This document shows, piece by piece, positions 17,325 to 26,086 of a stretch of 64,000 bases of DNA. Made by a program: the position numbers and the translations under genes. Each line of letters starts with the position of its first letter. Positions within the stretch are counted from its first letter, which is position 1. This stretch comes from Dietzia sp. B32 (GTDB taxonomy: Bacteria; Actinomycetota; Actinomycetes; Mycobacteriales; Mycobacteriaceae), in contig NZ_CP093845.1 in the NCBI RefSeq assembly GCF_024732245.1, positions 3,611,427 to 3,675,426 of the forward strand, read 5' to 3'. The notes below the pieces were generated by a model. It saw only the letters and a list, made by a program, of their open reading frames with translations. It was not told the origin of the DNA and did no database searches.

Positions 17325-18080
17325 ATGGCGAAGAGCGAGCTCACCAAGGCGGATAAGAAGGCGGCCCGCGCCGTCCGGCGGCAGGCGGGCAAGGAACAGC
17401 GCGGCCAGATGTGGCAGGCGCTGAAGATCCAGTCCAAGCAGGACAAGCTCCTGTGGCCGCTGATGATCGGCGCCCTGGTGGTGTCGGTGGTCGTGTTCTT
17501 CCTTCTCGGCACACTGTGGGGCGGCGAGTGGTGGATGCTCCCACTGGGCGTGCTCACCGGTCTCATGCTCGCGATGGTGATCTTCTCGCGACGTGTGCAG
17601 AACACGGTGTACGGCAAAGCCGAGGGTCAGCCCGGTGCCGCGGCGTGGTCCCTGGACCAACTGCGGTCCGGATGGCGGGTCAACCAGGCCGTCGCCGCCA
17701 CGACGAGCTTCGACGCCGTTCACCGGGTGGTCGGACGGTGCGGCATCGTGATCGTGGGCGAGGGTGAACCGCGCCGCCTCAAGCCGCTCATGGCGCAGGA
17801 GAAGAAGAAGGTCGCCCGGGTCGTGGGCGACACCCCGATCTACGAACTGATCGTGGGCGATGAGCAGGACGCCACCCCGGAACAGGTGCCGCTGCGCAAG
17901 CTCAATCGCCGCCTCACCCGCTACCCGATGAACATCAGTCGGGCCAAGGTCGACGCGCTCGATACGCGGCTCCGCGCGCTGAGCACCAAGACCGGCGTGC
18001 AGAATCAGATGCCCAAGGGCCCGATGCCCCAGGGTGCGAAGGTCCGCAACATCCAGCGCAGCGCCCGCCGCCGCGGCTGA
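17325..18080 (+). CDS. DUF4191 membrane protein
   Basis: Conserved actinobacterial protein (251 residues), equivalent by position to Rv2219. It has a basic N-terminus (MAKSELTKADKKAARAVRRQ), two closely spaced transmembrane helices near residues 45-65 and 70-90, and a soluble C-terminal domain ending in a basic tail (RRRG). Function unknown. The ATG at 17325 was chosen over a GTG six bases upstream because MAKSE is the usual family start. Confidence 0.85.
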   Translation: MAKSELTKADKKAARAVRRQAGKEQRGQMWQALKIQSKQDKLLWPLMIGALVVSVVVFFLLGTLWGGEWWMLPLGVLTGLMLAMVIFSRRVQNTVYGKAEGQPGAAAWSLDQLRSGWRVNQAVAATTSFDAVHRVVGRCGIVIVGEGEPRRLKPLMAQEKKKVARVVGDTPIYELIVGDEQDATPEQVPLRKLNRRLTRYPMNISRAKVDALDTRLRALSTKTGVQNQMPKGPMPQGAKVRNIQRSARRRG

Positions 18081-18097
18081 CCCGGCCCGCCGGCTCG

Positions 18098-18583
18098 TCA
18101 GCGGGTGCGGATGAGCGTGGTGCCGGTGGCGCGGTCGTGCATGCCACGGCCGTCCTCGTCCTGGATGAGCGGGGGTAGCAGGAAGAAGATGAACACCACC
18201 CGCACGAGCGCGCGGACGAAGCCCACGCGCTCGTCGGCATCGATCCGCGCCGTGCCGATGCCCACCACTGCCTGCCCCGGGGTCTGTGCGAACAGCCACA
18301 CGCAGACCACGCCGCTCACGCCCCAGATCAGCGGCACGGCCCAGCTCGAGACAGTGGAGAACGAGTCACCTCCGAGGACGCCCGGGCCGGCCAGCATCAC
18401 GATGATCGCGACCAGGCCGTACGCCAGGGACCAATCCACCACGAGGGCGCCGATCCGGAGGCCCAGCGGGGCGATCGACCCCTCCCCGTGGCGGGGGAGC
18501 CCGAGGTTCTCTCCCTTGAACTTCTGCTCCGGCCCACTGCCGGAGGTGGGTCCGGACAGCCAAGATCCCGCAACGTCACGCAT
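18098..18583 (-). CDS. RDD family membrane protein
   Basis: Small integral membrane protein (161 residues) of the RDD family, named for conserved Arg and Asp residues. Here APLGLRIGALVVDWSLAYG carries the first conserved Arg/Asp pair and ARIDADERVGFVRALVR the later one, with three to four hydrophobic helices. Function unknown in most cases; some members transport ions. Convergent with the DUF4191 gene and divergent from glnA1, the arrangement in mycobacteria (Rv2219A). Confidence 0.85.
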   Translation of the reverse strand: MRDVAGSWLSGPTSGSGPEQKFKGENLGLPRHGEGSIAPLGLRIGALVVDWSLAYGLVAIIVMLAGPGVLGGDSFSTVSSWAVPLIWGVSGVVCVWLFAQTPGQAVVGIGTARIDADERVGFVRALVRVVFIFFLLPPLIQDEDGRGMHDRATGTTLIRTR

Positions 18584-18687
18584 GCTGACCAGGGTAGCCG
18601 GGCGACCTGCCGATCCCCATGTCGGCGATACCCCGCCGCGGATGACTAAACTGACCCCATTGGGAGGGACCCCACCCGGTCGATGGT

Positions 18688-18725
18688 GTTACACCAGCGA
18701 AACATTCGGTTGACGGCCGGGCAAC
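18688..18725 (+). promoter_or_regulatory. Double GlnR box and candidate promoter for glnA1
   Basis: The sequence reads GTTAC-n6-GAAAC-n6-TTGAC-n6-GCAAC with exact six-base spacers. This fits two consecutive copies of the actinobacterial GlnR motif gTnAC-n6-GaAAc, first near-perfect and second degenerate. The second a-half overlaps a possible -35 TTGACG (18710-18715), followed after 18 bases by CATATC (18734-18739). The glnA1 start is 77 bases beyond the box. GlnR itself is not in this window. Confidence 0.75.
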
Positions 18726-18802
18726 ACCTCGCCCATATCGTGAGGTCACCGCACGACGGGAGACACCGGTCGCCCGTCGCACAGAGAGACGAGGAGCGAA
18801 TC

Positions 18803-20236
18803 GTGGCATTCTCCACTCCGGACGAGGTCATCAAGTTCATCAAGGACGAGGGCGTCGAGTACGTCGACATCCGGTTCACCGACCTGCCGGGCAACGAGCA
18901 GCACTTCACGATCGCCGCAGCGGCGTTCGACGAGGACCTGATCGAAGACGGTCTGGCCTTCGACGGCTCCTCCATCCGGGGTTTCCAGTCGATCCACGAG
19001 TCCGACATGATGCTCCTGCCGGATGTCGCCACGGCCCGCCTCGACCCGTTCCGCAAGGCCAAGACGCTCAACATCAGCTGCTTCGTCCACGATCCCTTCA
19101 CCCGTGAGGCCTACAGCCGCGACCCGCGCAACGTCGCCCGCAAGGCCGAGGAGTACCTGGTCTCCACCGGCATCGCCGACACCTGCTTCTTCGGCGCCGA
19201 GGCCGAGTTCTTCATCTTCGATTCGGTCCGCTACGGCTCGGGCACCAACCACGGCTTCTACGAGGTCGACTCGACCGCCGGCCACTGGAACAGCGGCGCC
19301 GAGACCGAGGCCGACGGCTCCCCCAACCTCGGCTACAAGGTCCGCGCCAAGGGTGGCTACTTCCCGGTCGCCCCGTACGACCACTTCGTCGACCTGCGCG
19401 ACGAGATGTCCACCAACCTCACCAACGCCGGCTTCGAGCTCGAGCGTCTGCACCACGAGGTCGCCGGCGCCCAGCAGGAGATCAACTACAAGTTCAACAC
19501 CCTGCTGCACGCCGCCGACGACGTCCAGCTGTTCAAGTACATCGTCAAGAACACCGCGTGGAAGAACGGCAAGTCCGCCACGTTCATGCCCAAGCCCCTC
19601 TTCGGCGACAACGGTTCGGGTATGCACGCCCACCAGTCGCTGTGGAAGGACGGCAAGCCGTTGTTCCACGACGAGTCCGGCTACGCGGGCCTGTCCGACA
19701 TCGCCCGGTACTACATCGGCGGCATCCTGCACCACGCGCCGTCGCTGCTGGCGTTCACCAACCCGACGATCAACTCGTACCACCGGCTCGTCCCGGGCTA
19801 CGAGGCCCCGATCAACCTGGTGTACTCGCAGCGCAACCGCTCGGCGTGTGTCCGGATCCCGATCACCGGCAACAACCCCAAGGCCAAGCGCATCGAGTTC
19901 CGCTGCCCCGACTCCTCCGGCAACCCGTACTTCGCGTTCGCCGCGATGATGATGGCCGGCATCGACGGTGTGAAGAACAAGATCGAGCCGATGGCCCCGG
20001 TCGACAAGGACCTCTACGAGCTCCCGCCGGAGGAGGCCGCCGACATCCCGCAGGCGCCCACCTCGCTGCCCGCGGTGATCGACCGCCTCGAGCAGGACCA
20101 CGAGTACCTCACCGAGGGTGGCGTGTTCACCGAGGACCTCATCGAGAACTGGATCTCGTACAAGCGCGAGAAGGAGATCGCCCCGGTGAACCTCCGCCCG
20201 CACCCGCACGAGTTCGAGCTCTACTACGACTGCTGA
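18803..20236 (+). CDS. glnA1: Glutamine synthetase type I
   Basis: Dodecameric GSI-beta enzyme making glutamine from glutamate and ammonia. The 477-residue product from a GTG start (GAGGAG upstream) has the family landmarks [28 protein letters not shown] and [10 protein letters not shown]. The adenylylation site Tyr405 in [11 protein letters not shown] corresponds closely to Tyr406 of the M. tuberculosis enzyme. GlnE in this window is the expected modifier, and a GlnR box lies upstream. The last eight codons (ending FELYYDC) are repeated 3.3 kb downstream, see 23543-23566. Confidence 0.96.
20213..20236 (+). repeat. glnA1 3'-end copy of a 24-bp direct repeat (candidate attachment site)
   Basis: The final 24 bases of glnA1, including the stop codon, match 23543-23566 at 21 of 24 positions with no gaps. 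The first eight bases are identical. The two copies lie on either side of the DUF262-HNH/EcsC gene pair. Interpreted as one end of an inserted element; see findings. Confidence 0.65.
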
Positions 20237-20543
20237 CAGATGTCGCAGCCCTGAAAGGGCCTCTGAACTGCAGACTTGCAGGCTCAGGGGCCTTTTCCGT
20301 TGCCGTGAGATCGGCCGGATCCCGCAGGACTCACTGGGCCGTGGTCATCGAGGCCACGCTCCACGCACCGATCGCCACGGACTTCGAGCAGTACCGTCGC
20401 GTCGACGACGCCCGGTGTACACCGCTGTGCGTCGTGAGGCATAGCGACTCTTGAACATGCCGCGGTGGGAGGCGGCAATACGTTTGTCCTGCACCGTGTC
20501 GGCGCACTCGCTAACGTTTGCTGCAACGACGAGGAGATCACGT
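20237..20543. other. Intergenic region between glnA1 and the DUF262 gene
   Basis: 307 bases. The first part holds the glnA1 terminator (20254-20297). The remainder shows a shift to lower GC and contains a GAGGAG ribosome site at 20531-20536 for the DUF262 gene. No small gene or structured RNA recognised. Confidence 0.4.
20254..20297 (+). terminator. Terminator after glnA1
   Basis: An imperfect stem pairs AAAGGGCCTCTGA (from 20254) with TCAGGGGCCTTTT (to about 20296), followed by a short T run. It begins 18 bases after the glnA1 stop and lies inside the direct-repeat-bounded segment. Confidence 0.65.
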
Positions 20544-22334
20544 ATGGCGAAGTACTCCGTGACGCAGTCCGCGGTCACGCAATTGCTGGCTGACGTCAGG
20601 AGCGATCGCATCGCAATACCCGAACTCCAGCGACCATTCGTCTGGGACAGCGTCAAGGTCCGCGATCTGATGGACTCCCTCTATAAGGGCTACCCCGTCG
20701 GCTACCTGATCACCTGGCAGTCGGTGGGCGCCAAACTTAAGGGGGGTCAGGTCGCGGCGCACCAGCAAATCCTCATTGATGGCCAGCAGCGCATCACGGC
20801 ACTTCGGGCCGCGGTCGCGGGTCTAAAGGTGATCAACAAGAGGTACAAGGCAGTCCGCATCGTCGTCGCGTTCAATCCGATCACCGAAGCGTTCGCGACC
20901 CTGACCCCAGTCATCGGGAAGAATCCCCAGTGGATCTCTGACATCAGCGAGTACTTCAACTCTGACTCGCCGCTGGGGTTCGCGCGGCAGTACATGGAGC
21001 GCAATCCCAGTGTCGACCCTAAGGTCTTCGAATTCAACCTCGCCAAACTCGGGGCGATCCAGAACGCCCAGATCGGGATCATCGGTCTCGCCGACGACCT
21101 CGACGTCGAGACTGTCTCCGAGATCTTCATCCGCATCAACTCCAAGGGTGTGCCCCTCAGCAGCGCCGACTTCGCGATGAGCAAGATCGCCACCTACGGC
21201 GACCGCGGACGCAATCTCCGCAAGCTAATCGACTACTTCTGCCACTTGGCTGTCGCGCCGCACGCCTACGCCGACATCAAAGAGAACGATGGCGAGTTCG
21301 CAGCCACCAGCTACCTCAAGGCGATTAGCTGGCTGAAGGACGAGGCCGAGGACCTCTACGACCCCGAATACAGTGACATCATCCGCGTAGCGGGGCTAGT
21401 CGGCTTCAGCCGGGGCAAGGCCTCCAGCATCGTGAGTGAACTTTCTGGTCGCGACCCGGAGACCCGCAAGGTTGACGAGGAACGCATTCCGGTCGCCTAC
21501 GACAAACTCGAAGCGGCTCTCCTCAAGATCGTCAACAACTTTCACTTCGACAACTTCCTCATGCTTATAAAGTCGGCGGGCTTCATCAGTCCAGGCATGG
21601 TGAACTCTCGGAACGCGCTCAATTTCGCCTACGCGCTCTATCTCCGCCTGCGCGACGACAAAGACACTAGCGAGGGTGAGCGTAAGCGCATCGTGAAGCG
21701 CTGGTTCGTGATGTCGATGCTCACCGGCCGACACTCCGGAAGCTTCGAGTCCACCTGGGAGCAAGACATCCGCCGCATCGGTGAGCAAGGTGCCGCCAAC
21801 TACCTCAAGCAAGTCGAAGAGTCCGAGCTCTCGGACGCCTTCTGGGCCGTTACTCTTCCCGCCGCCTTGGAGACGACGAGTACGGTTAGCCCCTTCTTCC
21901 AGACCTTCCTCGCTGCCCAGGTCGCGAACAACTCCCGCGGATTCCTCTCCAAAGGAATCACCGTCGCAGCTATGACCCAGCAGTCGGGCGACATACACCA
22001 CATAGTCCCCAAGGACTACCTGCAGAAGAATGGCTATCCCGACCGCGGTGACTACAATCAGGTAGCCAATTACGTATTGACCGAGACGTCAATCAACATC
22101 AGCATCAGCAACAAACCACCAGCTGTTTACATGGCCGAAGTCGATGAGCAGATCAAGACCGGCAAACTCACCCTCGGAGAGATCACCGACACTGGCGGTT
22201 TGGCCCGGAACCTTGCCGAGAACGCTGTGCCTGAATTCCTACCGGCAGTCGATGCCGGTTCCTACAAGGAGTTTCTCGCCGAGCGCCGGAAGCTTATGGC
22301 CGCCACCATCCGCGACTACTTCCAAGCCCTCTGA
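20544..22334 (+). CDS. DUF262 protein with C-terminal HNH (DUF1524-like) nuclease domain, GmrSD-type
   Basis: A 596-residue protein. The N-terminal DUF262 (ParB/Srx-like, GmrS) domain shows IPELQRPFVWDSVKVRDLM near residue 22, the nucleotide-binding or hydrolysis motif DGQQR at 79-83, and EIFIRINSKGVPLSSADFAM near residue 193. The C-terminal region carries a His-His nuclease motif DIHHIVPKDYL with His485 and His486, followed by NYVLTETSINISISNKPP, as in the GmrD/DUF1524 HNH fold. GmrSD proteins are modification-dependent (type IV) restriction enzymes that attack glucosylated hydroxymethylcytosine DNA. Others in the family have untested targets, so the substrate here is unknown. The ATG at 20544 has GAGGAG upstream. 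Lower GC than neighbours suggests transfer. The EcsC gene follows after 17 bases. Confidence 0.82.
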   Translation: MAKYSVTQSAVTQLLADVRSDRIAIPELQRPFVWDSVKVRDLMDSLYKGYPVGYLITWQSVGAKLKGGQVAAHQQILIDGQQRITALRAAVAGLKVINKRYKAVRIVVAFNPITEAFATLTPVIGKNPQWISDISEYFNSDSPLGFARQYMERNPSVDPKVFEFNLAKLGAIQNAQIGIIGLADDLDVETVSEIFIRINSKGVPLSSADFAMSKIATYGDRGRNLRKLIDYFCHLAVAPHAYADIKENDGEFAATSYLKAISWLKDEAEDLYDPEYSDIIRVAGLVGFSRGKASSIVSELSGRDPETRKVDEERIPVAYDKLEAALLKIVNNFHFDNFLMLIKSAGFISPGMVNSRNALNFAYALYLRLRDDKDTSEGERKRIVKRWFVMSMLTGRHSGSFESTWEQDIRRIGEQGAANYLKQVEESELSDAFWAVTLPAALETTSTVSPFFQTFLAAQVANNSRGFLSKGITVAAMTQQSGDIHHIVPKDYLQKNGYPDRGDYNQVANYVLTETSINISISNKPPAVYMAEVDEQIKTGKLTLGEITDTGGLARNLAENAVPEFLPAVDAGSYKEFLAERRKLMAATIRDYFQAL

Positions 22335-22351
22335 CGGACTGGATCTCTTCG

Positions 22352-23410
22352 ATGACCCTCTCTGCTTACGAACAGAAGGAGTGGGACCGCCTTCAACAGC
22401 GCAAGGCGGACGCTCTCAGCAAGAAGGCCCGCCACCTGTTGCCGACCGCAGCTCGGGATCGGATCTCCACGGCTGTCGATACAGTCAAACAGGCTCCTGC
22501 AGCCGAACTCGCGGGCACGGCCTATGCCAACGCGACGACAGAGCTCTGGAAGATCATCGGGAGTGCCGCTTCCATCACTGTGAGCACCGAGAACGTGGTC
22601 AAGCAGTTTCGAGCAGCGGGCTACCGGATCGGCGCGTTTGGCAGCATCCGAGGTCTTGACCTGGAAGTCGTCGATTCGGTTGCGAGGTTGAGCCGCATCC
22701 GGTGGGGCCACGCAGGGTCGGCCGCACTCAGCGGCTTCGCATCGGCAGCGGCCATCACAGGCGGTGGCGTGCTCGTCGCCGAGGGAACGGTGCACAACGA
22801 AGGCGCCAAGAAGGCCCCGGGATTCGGGGTTGTGGCAACCGCATACGCCGCAGACATCGCGTCGGTCCTCGGACTCGCGGCGCGAACAGTCGCCTCGACC
22901 GCCCGCTACTACGGCTACGACCCCCATCGACCCGAAGAGCAGGTCTTCATGATGTCCGTGATCGGTCTCGGCATGGCGACTGGGACGCCTGCCAAGACCG
23001 CCGCCTACGCCGAACTCTCACAGTTGACGCAACTCCTGTTCCGTGATGCAACCTGGGCCAAGCTCAACGAGAAGGTCCTCACGAAGATCGCTCAGCAGTT
23101 CGCGAACAGGTTCAGTGTCAGTCTCACCAAGAAGAAGCTTGGCCAGTTCGTCCCGATTGCTGGGGTACTCGTCGGGGCAGGGCTCAACTTCGCGCTCATT
23201 GACAGCATTGCGGTCGCCGCCAACGATGCCTATCGAGAACGCTTCCTCATCGGGAAGTCGGGTGTAACGCTCTATGATGTCGCCGATGGCTCTGGTTCAG
23301 CCGCTTCGCTCAACGAGAGCGCCATCAGCGTCATCAATCTGCTTAAGGAAGAGGGCGCACTCCCGGCACTCGATCCGCGCACCGCATCGCCCGAGGAGCA
23401 CGACGCCTGA
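22352..23410 (+). CDS. EcsC family protein, partner of the DUF262-HNH gene
   Basis: A 352-residue protein recognisable as EcsC family from its central segment YYGYDPHRPEEQVFMMSVIG and the hydrophobic, Gly/Ala-rich helices around it (about residues 125-150, 160-185, and near 265-290 in PIAGVLVGAGLNFALID). EcsC was named from the Bacillus ecs exporter operon but has no settled biochemical role. The hydrophobic stretches suggest membrane association. It starts 17 bases after the DUF262 gene with no good ribosome site of its own, which argues for translational coupling and a joint function. Composition matches the DUF262 gene. Confidence 0.8.
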   Translation: MTLSAYEQKEWDRLQQRKADALSKKARHLLPTAARDRISTAVDTVKQAPAAELAGTAYANATTELWKIIGSAASITVSTENVVKQFRAAGYRIGAFGSIRGLDLEVVDSVARLSRIRWGHAGSAALSGFASAAAITGGGVLVAEGTVHNEGAKKAPGFGVVATAYAADIASVLGLAARTVASTARYYGYDPHRPEEQVFMMSVIGLGMATGTPAKTAAYAELSQLTQLLFRDATWAKLNEKVLTKIAQQFANRFSVSLTKKKLGQFVPIAGVLVGAGLNFALIDSIAVAANDAYRERFLIGKSGVTLYDVADGSGSAASLNESAISVINLLKEEGALPALDPRTASPEEHDA

Positions 23411-23542
23411 CCCTCTGAGATTCCGCAGGAGACCCGTTCGAGGCCGAGATCAGCCAGAACGGGCCGAGCTCCGTTCTCAGCGTTCCTTAGCTCACACTGT
23501 GTTTTCCCGAGATGCTGAACATTTGCAAACGAACCCCGGGGT

Positions 23543-23566
23543 TTCGAGCTTTACTGCGACTGTTGA
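23543..23566 (+). repeat. Distal copy of the glnA1 3'-end repeat (candidate attachment site)
   Basis: Translated in frame it reads FELYCDC-stop, against FELYYDC-stop at the end of GlnA1. Two of the three base differences are synonymous third-position changes and one changes Tyr to Cys. The similarity stops abruptly on both sides. There is no open gene leading into it, so it is a non-coding fragment of a related but not identical glnA gene. Confidence 0.7.
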
Positions 23567-23627
23567 TGCTCTTGCCGCCCCGTACTATTGCAAAATGCAG
23601 GTCAGGGCCGCGGCCTGCCTTGAGGGA

Positions 23628-24032
23628 CTAGCCGGCCGAGTGACCGAAGGACCACGCGTCGACGGAGGAGATGCGCACGCGCATGACCGGCATGACGCCG
23701 GGAACGCCCCGCTGCCACGCGTCGGTGAGGTGGATGAACGAGGACACCCGTTCCTCGTCGTCCAGGGCGTTCTCGTACTTCATGATGCCGATCTGGCGGA
23801 ATATACTCGCCTGGGCGCCGGCCACTTCCTCGGACTTCTCGTCACCCGACAGTGCGTCGAGGGTGGCCGCCTGGATCCGCATGAACTCGCCCTCGGTGAT
23901 CAGGTTGCCCTCCCAGGCGTTCCCGTTGATCACGAGGGTGATCGGGAAGTTCACGGGGGCTTGCTCAATGCCCTCCGCCATCCGGCGGAGCAAGTAGTCG
24001 AGGTCGGTGGCGCCTTCATTACCAGTAGTCAC
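23628..24032 (-). CDS. Hypothetical protein, possibly GvpU-like
   Basis: 134-residue product from a GTG start (VTTGNEGATDLDYLL). The segment EQAPVNFPITLVINGNAWEGNLITEGEFMR recalls gas-vesicle accessory proteins of the GvpU type, but no gas-vesicle genes are nearby and the match is from memory of the fold pattern only. The start at 24032 is chosen since the upstream extension is Arg-rich and not protein-like. It is the first gene to the right of the candidate island and transcribed toward it. High-GC codon use agrees with the chromosome. Confidence 0.55.
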   Translation of the reverse strand: MTTGNEGATDLDYLLRRMAEGIEQAPVNFPITLVINGNAWEGNLITEGEFMRIQAATLDALSGDEKSEEVAGAQASIFRQIGIMKYENALDDEERVSSFIHLTDAWQRGVPGVMPVMRVRISSVDAWSFGHSAG

Positions 24033-24232
24033 GGCTCGAGTGTATCGACGCCGGTCGGTTACACGGACAGGACGCCGAGGACGCACACCCGCCCGTCGGC
24101 GCTCCCTCCGGATGCCGTTCCCCACCCCGTCGGGAAAACCCCTGATTCCGCCGGCCGCCCCGGCCGGGGCGTTTACGGTGGTGGCAACCCGGCGACCACG
24201 GCCGGGCGCCACGCCGGGAAGGAGCCGGGATC

Positions 24233-24637
24233 ATGGAGACCGACGGATTCGACTTCCGCAGTTCCTCCCCCCGGGCCCGGCCGCTCAAGGTGGTCGCCGC
24301 GGCACTCGATCCGGAACACGACCCCGACAGGCAGGGACAGGGCTACCCCGTCCTGCTCAAACTGTCGCGGGTCCTGGACCCGGAGGAGGCGCGTCTGATC
24401 CTCGAGCGCAATCCCTTCCTCCACGCCACCGCCGGTTCCCGGAAGCTCATCGCCATGGACACCTCGGTCGAGACCCTCCGCGAGCAGAAGGACCGGCTCC
24501 AGCTCCTCCTCGCGGAGGTCGAGGCCGACGCCCTCGCCGAGCAGGCCCGCCAGCGGATGGAGGAGCACCGGGCGGCCGAACTCCGGGTGGAGGAGCTGCG
24601 TCGGCGGAACGAGATCCTCGGGGAGATCGAGTGGTGA
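24233..24637 (+). CDS. Hypothetical protein with C-terminal coiled coil
   Basis: 134 residues, not recognised. The N-terminal half is mixed ([25 protein letters not shown], then YPVLLKLSRVLDPEEARLILERNPF); from about residue 80 to the end it is a Glu/Arg/Leu heptad-rich helix likely to form a coiled coil. A GGAAGGAG ribosome site lies just upstream of the ATG at 24233, supporting the start. DUF1206 gene follows 45 bases later on the same strand. Confidence 0.65.
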   Translation: METDGFDFRSSSPRARPLKVVAAALDPEHDPDRQGQGYPVLLKLSRVLDPEEARLILERNPFLHATAGSRKLIAMDTSVETLREQKDRLQLLLAEVEADALAEQARQRMEEHRAAELRVEELRRRNEILGEIEW

Positions 24638-24682
24638 CCGGGTTCGGGTGGTGAATGTGCAGCGGCATGGGAGAGTTCACCC

Positions 24683-25492
24683 ATGAATTCCCCGCTCCGC
24701 TCCCGGTCCGTCTCCGGCGCCGCACGCTCCGCCGCGGACCACCCCGCACTCGAATGGCTGGCCCGCGCCGGATTCGTCATGAACGGGGTGCTCCACCTGC
24801 TCATCGGGTGGATCGCCGTTCGCATCGCGCTCGGGTCGGGAGGCGGTGAGGCCTCCAACTCGGGTGCCCTGGCGCAGATCGCGAGCGCCCCCGGCGGGCA
24901 GGTCATGCTGTGGGGTGGCGCGGTGGGCTTCGTCGCGCTGGGCCTGTGGCAGATCACCGAACTGCTACTCGGGTCCGAGGATGCCTCCGACCGGGTGAAG
25001 GCCGGGGCCAAGGCGGCCGTCTACGTGGCGCTGGGGCTCACCACCGCGCGGTTCGCCTCCGGCGGCGGCGGGTCGGATTCCCAGACCGCCTCCGACGCCA
25101 CGTCCGGCCTGCTCGCCTCCGGGCCGGGGAAGGTGGCGTTGGTCATCGCGGGCCTGGTGATCCTCGGGGTGGGCGGGTACCACGTCTACAAGGGGGCCAC
25201 GGCGGCGTTCGTCGAGGACCTCGAACGCACCGGCGGTGGTCAGGTCGGCCGGGCCATGATCATCGCGGGCCGGGTGGGTTACGTCGCCAAGGGCATCGCG
25301 CTGGCCATCCTGGGCGGTCTGGTGGTCGCCGCCGTCGTCACCACGGACCCGGAGAAGGCCGGCGGGCTGGACTCCGCGCTGCGCACGGTCGGCGAGCAAC
25401 CGTTCGGGCAGGTCCTGTTGGTGCTGACCGGCGCGGGAATCGCCCTGTACGGTCTCTACTCGATCGGGCGGGCCCGCTACGGCCGGATGTGA
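24683..25492 (+). CDS. DUF1206 membrane protein
   Basis: 269 residues with six hydrophobic helices arranged as three repeated two-helix units, typical of DUF1206. Each unit opens with an Ala-Arg-x-Gly motif: LARAGFVMNGVLHLLIG at the start, a middle unit after KAGAKAAVYVALG, and AGRVGYVAKGIALAILG near residue 195. Function unknown; no enzymatic residues seen. The ATG at 24683 is weakly supported by a GGAG 13 bases upstream. Confidence 0.85.
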   Translation: MNSPLRSRSVSGAARSAADHPALEWLARAGFVMNGVLHLLIGWIAVRIALGSGGGEASNSGALAQIASAPGGQVMLWGGAVGFVALGLWQITELLLGSEDASDRVKAGAKAAVYVALGLTTARFASGGGGSDSQTASDATSGLLASGPGKVALVIAGLVILGVGGYHVYKGATAAFVEDLERTGGGQVGRAMIIAGRVGYVAKGIALAILGGLVVAAVVTTDPEKAGGLDSALRTVGEQPFGQVLLVLTGAGIALYGLYSIGRARYGRM

Positions 25493-25528
25493 CCCGGCGA
25501 GCGTGACACGGCGGGGCGCACGCGTGTC

Positions 25529-26086
25529 TCAGCCGAGCTTGGGGAAGTTCTGGGGACAGTAGGTCCCGACCGCAGCGCCGAGGAAGAAGCCCTGGCCGTC
25601 GGGGTCGAGGCCGGCCCGCTCCCCCAGCCATCCGGAGACCTCGTCCATCTGCTGCCCGCCGTCGAACCGGCCGCAGGCCTCGGTGGCCGTCACGACGGGA
25701 TCCACGCCCTCGGGCAGGGTGACGCCCCGCCGCTCGAGCAGTGCGACGAAGTCCCCACCCCCGGGAGCCGGCGGCGGGGGCTCGGCAGCCCCCGGGCCGG
25801 GTGCGTCCGCCGGTGCCTCCTCGGGCGGCGGCAGCGGTTCGGGCTCCCCCGGCATCGGCTCGGGAGCCGGCGACTGGGGCGAAGGAGGCGGAACCGGGCC
25901 GGTGGGCTTCTCCGGCCGCTCCTGGGCGAACGGCGACGAGGTGGCCACCGACGCAGTGGGTTCCGAGGACACCTCCGGGGCCTCGCCGTCCACCGTCGCC
26001 CCGCCGCACCCCGCGAGGACTGCCGCCACCACAGCGGTGGCGACGCCGGAGGCGGTCAGGCGCGTACGTGAACTCATGGTGCGCAT
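25529..26086 (-). CDS. DUF732-domain lipoprotein with proline-rich spacer
   Basis: 185 residues. The N-terminus is a lipoprotein signal (VAAVLAGCGG, lipidated Cys near 27), followed by about 75 residues dominated by Pro, Glu and Ser, then a DUF732-like domain. That domain runs FVALLERRGVTLPEG to the end and has two cysteines (EACGRF and TYCPQNF), expected to form a disulfide. DUF732 proteins are small exported proteins of unknown function common in mycobacteria. The Pro-rich spacer probably spans the cell wall. Confidence 0.75.
   Translation of the reverse strand: MRTMSSRTRLTASGVATAVVAAVLAGCGGATVDGEAPEVSSEPTASVATSSPFAQERPEKPTGPVPPPSPQSPAPEPMPGEPEPLPPPEEAPADAPGPGAAEPPPPAPGGGDFVALLERRGVTLPEGVDPVVTATEACGRFDGGQQMDEVSGWLGERAGLDPDGQGFFLGAAVGTYCPQNFPKLG

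Follow-up and report, generated by a model that had tools for sequence, protein, structure and literature searches.

In the analysed DNA (a stretch of 64 kb, hereafter the window), a DUF262-HNH gene and an EcsC-family gene are bounded on either side by a copy of the glnA1 3' end, an arrangement which had been proposed in a preliminary description and which raises the question as to how the two genes arrived at this position and whether they represent one defence system or two modules that merely share a locus.

The island follows glnA1 (18803..20236, + strand), whose protein product displays 92-97% identity to its counterparts at 20 loci of the genus and 82% identity at a further one. The terminal 24 bases of this gene (20213..20236, +) constitute the left attachment-core copy and at the same time its functional 3' end, the identical 24-mer being present in most same-genus glnA1 genes. 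The left non-coding island end (20237..20543, +) contains, as read from the sequence, a terminator-like pair of inverted arms (20254-20266 and 20284-20296) that leads into T residues, and overlapping it a terminator-like stem (20280-20293) that is weak in view of three such stems being present in the region versus 2.2 expected. A possible integrase relic at approximately 20402-20473 on the complementary (-) strand reaches only 2.3 bits against an integrase profile, a score equalled in 1 of 120 controls. Next are the DUF262-HNH gene (20544..22334, +; 596 aa), predicted from Pfam, PADLOC and structural modelling to encode a single-chain GmrSD/BrxU-like nuclease of the HEC-05 type, and, following a gap of 17 bases as originally reported, the EcsC-family gene (22352..23410, +; 352 aa), a PDC-S29-like candidate defence gene by its PF12787 and PADLOC matches. 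The EcsC start is preceded, at a distance of 8 bases, by no more than a weak GGA, in line with the previously noted lack of a clear ribosome site. The right non-coding end (23411..23542, +) precedes the right attachment-core copy (23543..23566, +), which carries three mismatches and was delineated by a repeat search and by alignment to the empty site of the relative G316.

Base composition sets the two genes apart from their surroundings, as had been claimed, with GC contents of 0.591 (DUF262-HNH) and 0.626 (EcsC) versus 0.706 for the window (59 of 120 bases being G+C at 22021-22140), and with GC3 values of 0.80 and 0.74, respectively, versus 0.90-0.96 in six flanking genes. An Rfam search of positions 18000-26000 returned no match, mobile-element protein remnants in the island were limited to weak matches (best listed E value 7e-4), and the island lacks the integrase of its own that would characterise a complete element. 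The view that the island is foreign, att-bounded and patchily distributed is supported by the base composition, by the duplicated attachment core and by the absence of both genes from 21 same-genus glnA1 loci.

The assignment of the DUF262-HNH protein to the GmrSD/DUF262 group was borne out by a GmrSD_N match (Pfam E value 9.8e-28; 98 bits versus a cut-off of 33.2) and by HEC-05 being its best PADLOC match (2.7e-29), while the GmrSD_C match (0.0011; 19.4 bits) is below the 23-bit Pfam cut-off. The residues previously singled out, DGQQR (79-83) and HH (485-486), are invariant in 9/9 and in 32/32 aligned relatives, and H485, H486, N505, N509 and N518 are likewise invariant in all 32. The predicted model (mean pLDDT 86.9) has BrxU (7p9k) as its best match among solved structures (Foldseek E value 1.4e-11, ~18% identity), with a loose superposition (TM 0.39). 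On this basis the protein is best read as a BrxU/HEC-05-like single-chain relative of GmrSD, with putative nuclease activity and a presumed role in phage defence.

A total of 93 relatives of this protein were collected, corresponding to 80 genome loci and 13 viral loci. DNA identity of 76-81% to six distant hosts is limited to about 20511-22336, that is, to the boundaries of the gene itself, and in the DUF262 tree Betaproteobacteria are nested among Actinobacteria (100/97 within 97/94), which shows that the gene moves singly. EcsC was found near none of the 93 relatives (81 of which have at least 1.5 kb of downstream sequence), and this result, together with DNA homology ending at the gene, led to the rejection of a conserved DUF262(HEC-05)-EcsC operon and points to a gene without an obligate partner on genomic context. 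As has been described for BrxU and for further GmrSD fusions, the protein most probably works on its own.

Regarding the second gene, its product matches PF12787 over residues 164-299 (9e-28; 98 bits versus a cut-off of 30.4), and its best PADLOC match is PDC-S29 (5.2e-14; positions 78-214 of the 220 of a profile for which no cut-off is given). Glycine/alanine-rich hydrophobic stretches, with a best 19-residue hydropathy of 1.91 at residue 272, indicate that the protein is probably membrane-associated. Single-sequence structure prediction yielded an unusable model (pLDDT 38), and comparison with solved structures returned only chance-level matches to ribose-5-phosphate isomerase (E value 0.007). 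No EcsC with an experimentally tested function was found in the literature searched. The favoured reading treats EcsC as a separable second module with a candidate role in defence, a role which rests on gene surroundings chosen by eye. A possible, though doubtful, alternative is that EcsC is a passenger or a membrane-housekeeping gene without a defence role, in which case the DUF262-HNH gene alone would matter. Consistent with this are the metabolic-looking neighbours, as judged by eye, of the EcsC loci L066 and L068 in mycobacteria-like genomes, and the fact that no EcsC relative was retrieved from 50,697 phage records or from viral contigs. Against it stand the PDC-S29 match and the finding that 9 of 11 other EcsC loci have at least one scanned neighbour that falls into the restriction, helicase-nuclease, reverse-transcriptase or GmrSD categories, a proportion that is biased since these neighbours were picked by eye.

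The exact DUF262-HNH and EcsC pair of the window was found nowhere else, and the same two subfamilies do not recur in fixed order in several genomes as would be expected of a conserved system. On plasmids, EcsC occurs in six records, and in none of the four viewed is it beside DUF262. A different picture emerged for the wider families from a Pfam search of 30 EcsC-bearing genomes, which reversed the reading that EcsC and DUF262 never pair: a GmrSD-type gene is located within 5 kb of EcsC in five of these genomes (approximately four independent cases), versus a chance expectation of ~0.05 genomes. The corresponding P value under random placement is ~2e-9, or 2e-7 when the near-identical G627 and G634 are counted once, although random placement is ill suited as a null model, given that defence genes are clustered in any case. 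A separate search also flagged L070, L243 and L244. Co-occurrence elsewhere, the lack of which the preliminary description had named as a refutation, holds for the wider families and not for the exact pair, and neither this condition nor that of a pair shared at the same position by close relatives counts cleanly against the proposal.

It is tentatively conceivable, and on balance unlikely, that EcsC is a recurrent accessory partner of GmrSD/BrxU-type nucleases which, having been recruited time and again next to differing DUF262 subfamilies, would provide a membrane-side second layer, the window then containing a two-gene minimal form on an integrase-less cassette that a dedicated family of glnA1-site integrases mobilises in trans. 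Rather improbable is an obligate two-gene abortive infection system, in which the DUF262-HNH protein would detect or cut phage DNA and trigger EcsC to damage or close the membrane. The 17-base spacing in the window, from which an operon-like single transcription unit may be inferred, the recurrent proximity within 5 kb and a second operon-like case in G245, where 11 bases separate the end of a different, insertion-split DUF262-HNH gene from the EcsC gene that follows it on the same strand, are in agreement with such a system. However, EcsC is absent from the vicinity of all 93 close DUF262 relatives, the P values rest on the poor null mentioned above, and the orientation of the GmrSD-type gene relative to EcsC varies, being divergent in G428, G634 and G627 and convergent in G415, as does the DUF262 subfamily among the recurrent cases. 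Furthermore, DUF262-adjacent EcsC copies are scattered in the EcsC tree, where they require at least five changes and cluster no more than with shuffled labels, and G146 contains an EcsC near-identical to that of G245 without an adjacent DUF262 gene. The best reading is that of two separable modules and not of a fixed two-gene system. The earlier defence interpretation is supported as regards the two families, which best match HEC-05 and PDC-S29, and is not supported as regards a fixed pair.

How the genes arrived is indicated by the repeat itself, in which the terminal 24-base segment of glnA1 recurs to the right of the island with 21 identical positions, the next-best match to this 3' end on both strands of the 64 kb having seven mismatches. 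Of 23 genomes of the genus, two have the 21-base core (at most three mismatches) a second time, namely that of the window, in which the duplication is unique, and G308. The right core copy and the bases beyond it are 82% identical over 39 bases to the empty site of G316, and native downstream sequence resumes beyond this copy. Such an empty site, with only ~120-200 bases from glnA1 to the next gene, occurs in 13 of 21 same-genus loci, where that next gene is a homologue of window positions 24233-24637 and not glnE, and the earlier statement that the island splits glnA1 from glnE was incorrect. Neither DUF262 nor EcsC was detected in the glnA1 flanks, the only regions searched, of the 21 loci. 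The island thus shows the target-derived direct repeat on its flanks and the empty sites in relatives that are expected of an integrative element, and the duplicated glnA1 3' end is an attachment-site footprint. Present mobility of the island is doubtful because of the three mismatches among the 24 bases of the right core copy.

The same site is used by other elements. In G308, of the same genus, glnA1 is followed by an integrase and then a repressor, and another contig carries head-closure/adaptor genes, after which come a perfect 22-base copy of the core and the flank known from empty sites; this prophage uses the glnA1 3'-end site. The sequence TCCGCAGGAGA is common to the right end of the island (23422-23432) and to a 24-base repeat that bounds the G308 prophage on either side, and represents one of two such 11-mers on both strands of the 64 kb, which is weak and merely suggestive evidence of a relation. 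The genome of the window contains neither the intact 24-base repeat nor, at an E value of 1e-3, an integrase of the G308 type. Near-full-length relatives of this integrase in the same order (47-60% identity) are convergent beside glnA1 in 14 of 14 cases; each of the 14 genomes has a second copy of the glnA1 3' end, located 8.5-30 kb further on in 12 of 13 elements followed and on another contig in G245 and G237. Four broken or weaker matches were checked as well; glnA1 is likewise the neighbour of those in G261, G208 and G264, but not of a frameshifted copy in G242 (44-50% identity). The glnA1-site elements followed contained no EcsC or DUF262 at an E value of 0.01, and the attachment-core pattern had no match in viral contigs. 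A tyrosine-integrase lineage targets the glnA1 3' end across several families of one order, delivering prophages, elements that encode a relaxase and small elements equipped with tail genes, and this 3' end is a spot of repeated small-mobile-element uptake in related bacteria. That the repeat is due to chance or local duplication, as the missing integrase and the three mismatches might suggest, is strongly disfavoured and extremely improbable, considering that ~5e-6 such matches are expected from base composition, that the G308 prophage uses the same bases and that the order-wide integrase clade uses the homologous position.

Taken together, the locus is probably an integrase-less, att-bounded defence island of 3.3 kb, comprising a BrxU-like nuclease gene and an EcsC candidate-defence gene as separable modules and resulting from mobile-element integration at glnA1, a reading which partly supports the preliminary description. 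A mobile element would have entered the glnA1 3' end by site-specific recombination, thereby regenerating glnA1 on the left, displacing a 3'-end copy to the right and leaving behind the present layout of non-coding end, DUF262-HNH, EcsC and non-coding end. The two genes may be cargo that survived when a larger element, belonging to the glnA1-site integrase family, was otherwise deleted, or they may form a cassette for which such an integrase acted in trans. Nucleotide binding and hydrolysis by the DUF262 domain (DGQQR) would permit the C-terminal His-Me/HNH domain to cut DNA, with modified phage DNA as the putative target, and EcsC would be co-transcribed with DUF262-HNH in one unit. The analysis connects a two-gene island of foreign origin and defence type with one specific glnA1-site integration system, and makes EcsC a concrete test candidate beside GmrSD-type nucleases.

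Among the literature matches listed, neither glnA as an attachment site nor EcsC with DUF262 was recognised, and the combination of EcsC, DUF262 and defense returned no literature match. The available portion of PMC11411939 equates HEC-05 with BrxU and describes both as acting independently. The window protein resembles BrxU/HEC-05 in its DUF262 domain with invariant DGQQR, its C-terminal HH motif with conserved Asn and its single chain of ~596 aa; it differs in that structural alignment gives an identity of ~18% and in having HHI-P in place of the DHIYP motif given for BrxU in the accessible text of PMC8565348. No BREX neighbours were annotated in the seven plasmid DUF262 neighbourhoods viewed. 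The EcsC protein is similar to the PDC-S29/EcsC family (PF12787) by its family (9e-28) and PADLOC candidate (5e-14) matches, PDCs being single-gene defence candidates obtained by guilt-by-embedding according to the part of PMC12988326 at hand, and differs in being at most ~41% identical to the closest relative found. TgvAB of V. cholerae, as outlined in the same portion of PMC11411939, is comparable as a GmrSD-like two-protein defence. The island also resembles integrative elements inserted in the 3' ends of protein genes, such as SGI1 in trmE, in that the target gene is restored and a copy of its 3' end displaced, and differs from them in having glnA1 as target and in being devoid of an integrase, although elements that lack an integrase and are mobilisable in cis are known.

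The island holds two tandem genes on the + strand, a DUF262-HNH gene (20544-22334; Pfam GmrSD_N 9.8e-28, and GmrSD_C at 0.0011, below the cut-off of that family) and, after a gap of 17 bases, an EcsC gene (22352-23410; Pfam EcsC 9e-28). It is enclosed by a left core copy, being the last 24 bases of glnA1 (20213-20236), and a right core copy (23543-23566), with 3 mismatches between the two and at least 7 in the next-best match elsewhere in the window. GC3 is 0.80 for DUF262-HNH and 0.74 for EcsC, versus 0.90-0.96 for six neighbouring genes. Considering that the right copy and the bases beyond it align to the empty site of the comparison genome G316 (82% over 39 bases), the right copy is the displaced native glnA1 end. 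Its 3 mismatches suggest an old insertion; the elements at the same site in G222 and G109, which carry an integrase, also show 3 core mismatches.

A 21-base core is single in 21 of 23 same-genus genomes and double only in the genome of the window and in G308. In the latter, a convergent integrase gene and a repressor gene follow the glnA1 stop, and phage head-closure/adaptor genes on a different contig are succeeded by an exact 22-base core and then by the flank found right after glnA1 in other genomes. The core repeats are the footprint of an attachment site. Within the stretch retrieved per locus, DUF262 and EcsC occur at none of 21 same-genus glnA1 loci: the next gene lies merely ~120-200 bases away in 13, a homologue of 23628-24212 intervenes in two, and the remaining gaps contain an antitoxin-like gene (one), the G308 prophage (one) or something else (four). 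The antitoxin gene, in G298, is HigA-like (L061:909-1214; PHROG ‘plasmid antitoxin’, 5e-20), with neither a second core copy nor an obvious toxin neighbour among the ORFs listed. In G302 (L058) and G300 (L059), glnA1 and the gene that usually adjoins it are ~5.7 kb apart, with other DNA in between and no duplication of the core.

The island itself lacks an integrase gene, and no G308-type integrase was found in the genome of the window at E 1e-3; a possible integrase relic left of DUF262 reaches 2.3 bits against the integrase profile, with 1 of 120 control stretches scoring as high. The G308 prophage bears a 24-base repeat at both ends, one copy lying within the 3’ end of the integrase gene. 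This full repeat was not found in the genome of the window, and the right island end holds an 11-base match to it (one of two such 11-mers in the window, both strands counted), which is suggestive only. A third copy of the repeat (L261:774-797) sits in G308 where a further prophage-like region ends.

The G308 integrase was then used as query against 296 genomes of the order, and loci were retrieved for the best 30 genomes. Among these, all 14 integrases at 47-60% identity are convergent with and adjoin glnA1, as do none of the 16 retrieved at 34-41% and none of 11 weaker same-genus relatives. A coordinate check added three that adjoin glnA1, in G261 and G208 (both partial) and G264 (~35-38%), while the frameshifted G242 integrase (44-50%) is not beside it; the association of this clade with glnA1 is thus strong, but neither perfect nor fully delimited by identity. 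Followed outward from the integrase, 12 of 13 elements reach a second glnA1 3’ end with 0-3 mismatches, at 8.5, 8.5, 9.1, 12.6, 12.9, 15.1, 16.0, 17.9, 18.6, 18.8, 20.3 and 30.0 kb; in the thirteenth (G245) and in the fourteenth (G237) the second copy is on another contig. The glnA1 3’-end site is in use across the order. Since the core-pattern survey used one glnA1-end variant, matching 144 of the 296 genomes, further integrase-less inserts may have been overlooked. A degenerate core match with 2 mismatches (G288:C2:147401-147427) was also seen on a second contig, ~530 bases from another tyrosine integrase.

The contents of glnA1-site elements vary between genomes. A TrwC-type relaxase is encoded by those of G265 and G288 (Pfam), with which genes of G049 and G284 cluster, and the 20.3 kb G109 element (L295) encodes a PD-T4-6-like kinase, together with a protein weakly matching HNH-type defence profiles. 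Tape-measure or other tail genes occur in G222, G113 and G016 (L263-L276, L293-L318; tape-measure-like proteins, joined in G222 by an endolysin and a minor tail protein); their 15-18 kb is too little for an ordinary prophage, and these elements are possible tail-encoding satellites. The mobility of the island, proposed in the preliminary description, is well supported by the duplicated core, the empty same-genus sites and the use of the site by related integrases.

The same description treated the two genes as one system, and a fixed DUF262-EcsC unit is not supported: EcsC is near none of 93 loci of DUF262-HNH relatives (80 genome, 13 viral; 81 with at least 1.5 kb downstream retrieved), and GmrSD-EcsC orientation varies in the recurrent cases. 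Of 297 other genomes of the order, 20 hold an EcsC relative, and a class search (394 genomes, a draw overlapping the order search) adds 10 genomes; the EcsC coordinates in these 30 genomes were compared with those of Pfam GmrSD_N matches. A GmrSD-type gene adjoins EcsC in five: on the same strand, 11 bases apart, in G245 (DUF262 split by an insertion), divergently in G428, G634 and G627 (a fragment in the last) and convergently in G415. It is absent beside EcsC in the other 25, that of G626 being 14 kb off. Because the EcsC genes of G634 and G627 are near-identical, about four cases are independent; against ~0.05 such cases expected within 5 kb of EcsC under random placement in 30 genomes, this gives P about 2e-7. 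The association is real within this sample, recurrent but loose, and merits a proper survey.

Clustering of defence genes in islands explains this proximity equally well as functional pairing. On the EcsC tree, GmrSD-adjacent copies are scattered (at least 5 changes), with clustering no greater than under shuffled labels. In 9 of 11 loci EcsC has a gene of restriction, helicase-nuclease, reverse-transcriptase or GmrSD type nearby, the scanned neighbours having been selected by eye, and two mycobacteria-like EcsC loci have metabolic-looking surroundings. Individual loci include ZacC-type helicase genes a few kb from EcsC (L326, L329; PADLOC E 0), an RT_III-A defence-type reverse transcriptase (L319:8017-10134; 8e-157) on one side of EcsC with a GmrSD-type gene on the other, and a Klebsiella plasmid (L122) on which EcsC stands between two annotated genes, one for a site-specific integrase and one for an HNH endonuclease. 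Hydrophobic stretches and the general background of the family suggest a membrane-associated EcsC protein; a tested mechanism was not found in the literature searched.

The DUF262-HNH gene moves on its own. Its relatives with at least 42% identity are spread over several phyla, in chromosomes as well as on plasmids. At the DNA level, Kribbella, Nanopelagicales, Metallococcus, Rhizobacter, Rhodoferax and Polaromonas share 76-81% identity with it, limited to ~20511-22336; in the tree, a supported clade of three copies from Betaproteobacteria is nested among actinobacterial ones. Restriction-modification genes adjoin the relative in four of seven plasmid neighbourhoods viewed (H8, H9, H11, H16) and toxin-antitoxin genes in one (H7), with neither type in H10 and H12. 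A defence role is likely for this candidate island.

The best PADLOC family of DUF262-HNH is HEC-05 (2.7e-29), equated with BrxU and described as working independently in PMC11411939, and BrxU is its sole sequence relative among solved structures (9.5e-14). From this homology, DUF262-HNH alone is predicted to restrict modified phage DNA. According to PMC8565348, BrxU cuts 5mC, 5hmC and glc-5hmC DNA, nucleotide binding and hydrolysis by the DUF262 domain preceding cutting by the C-terminal domain; PMC4619093 proposes DGQQR as the NTP site, locates HNH in GmrD, and describes fused GmrSD forms as common and associated with defence islands. The predicted DUF262-HNH structure (32-row alignment; mean pLDDT 86.9) retrieves BrxU as first structure match at 1.4e-11, but with a TM of 0.39, and SspE as third.
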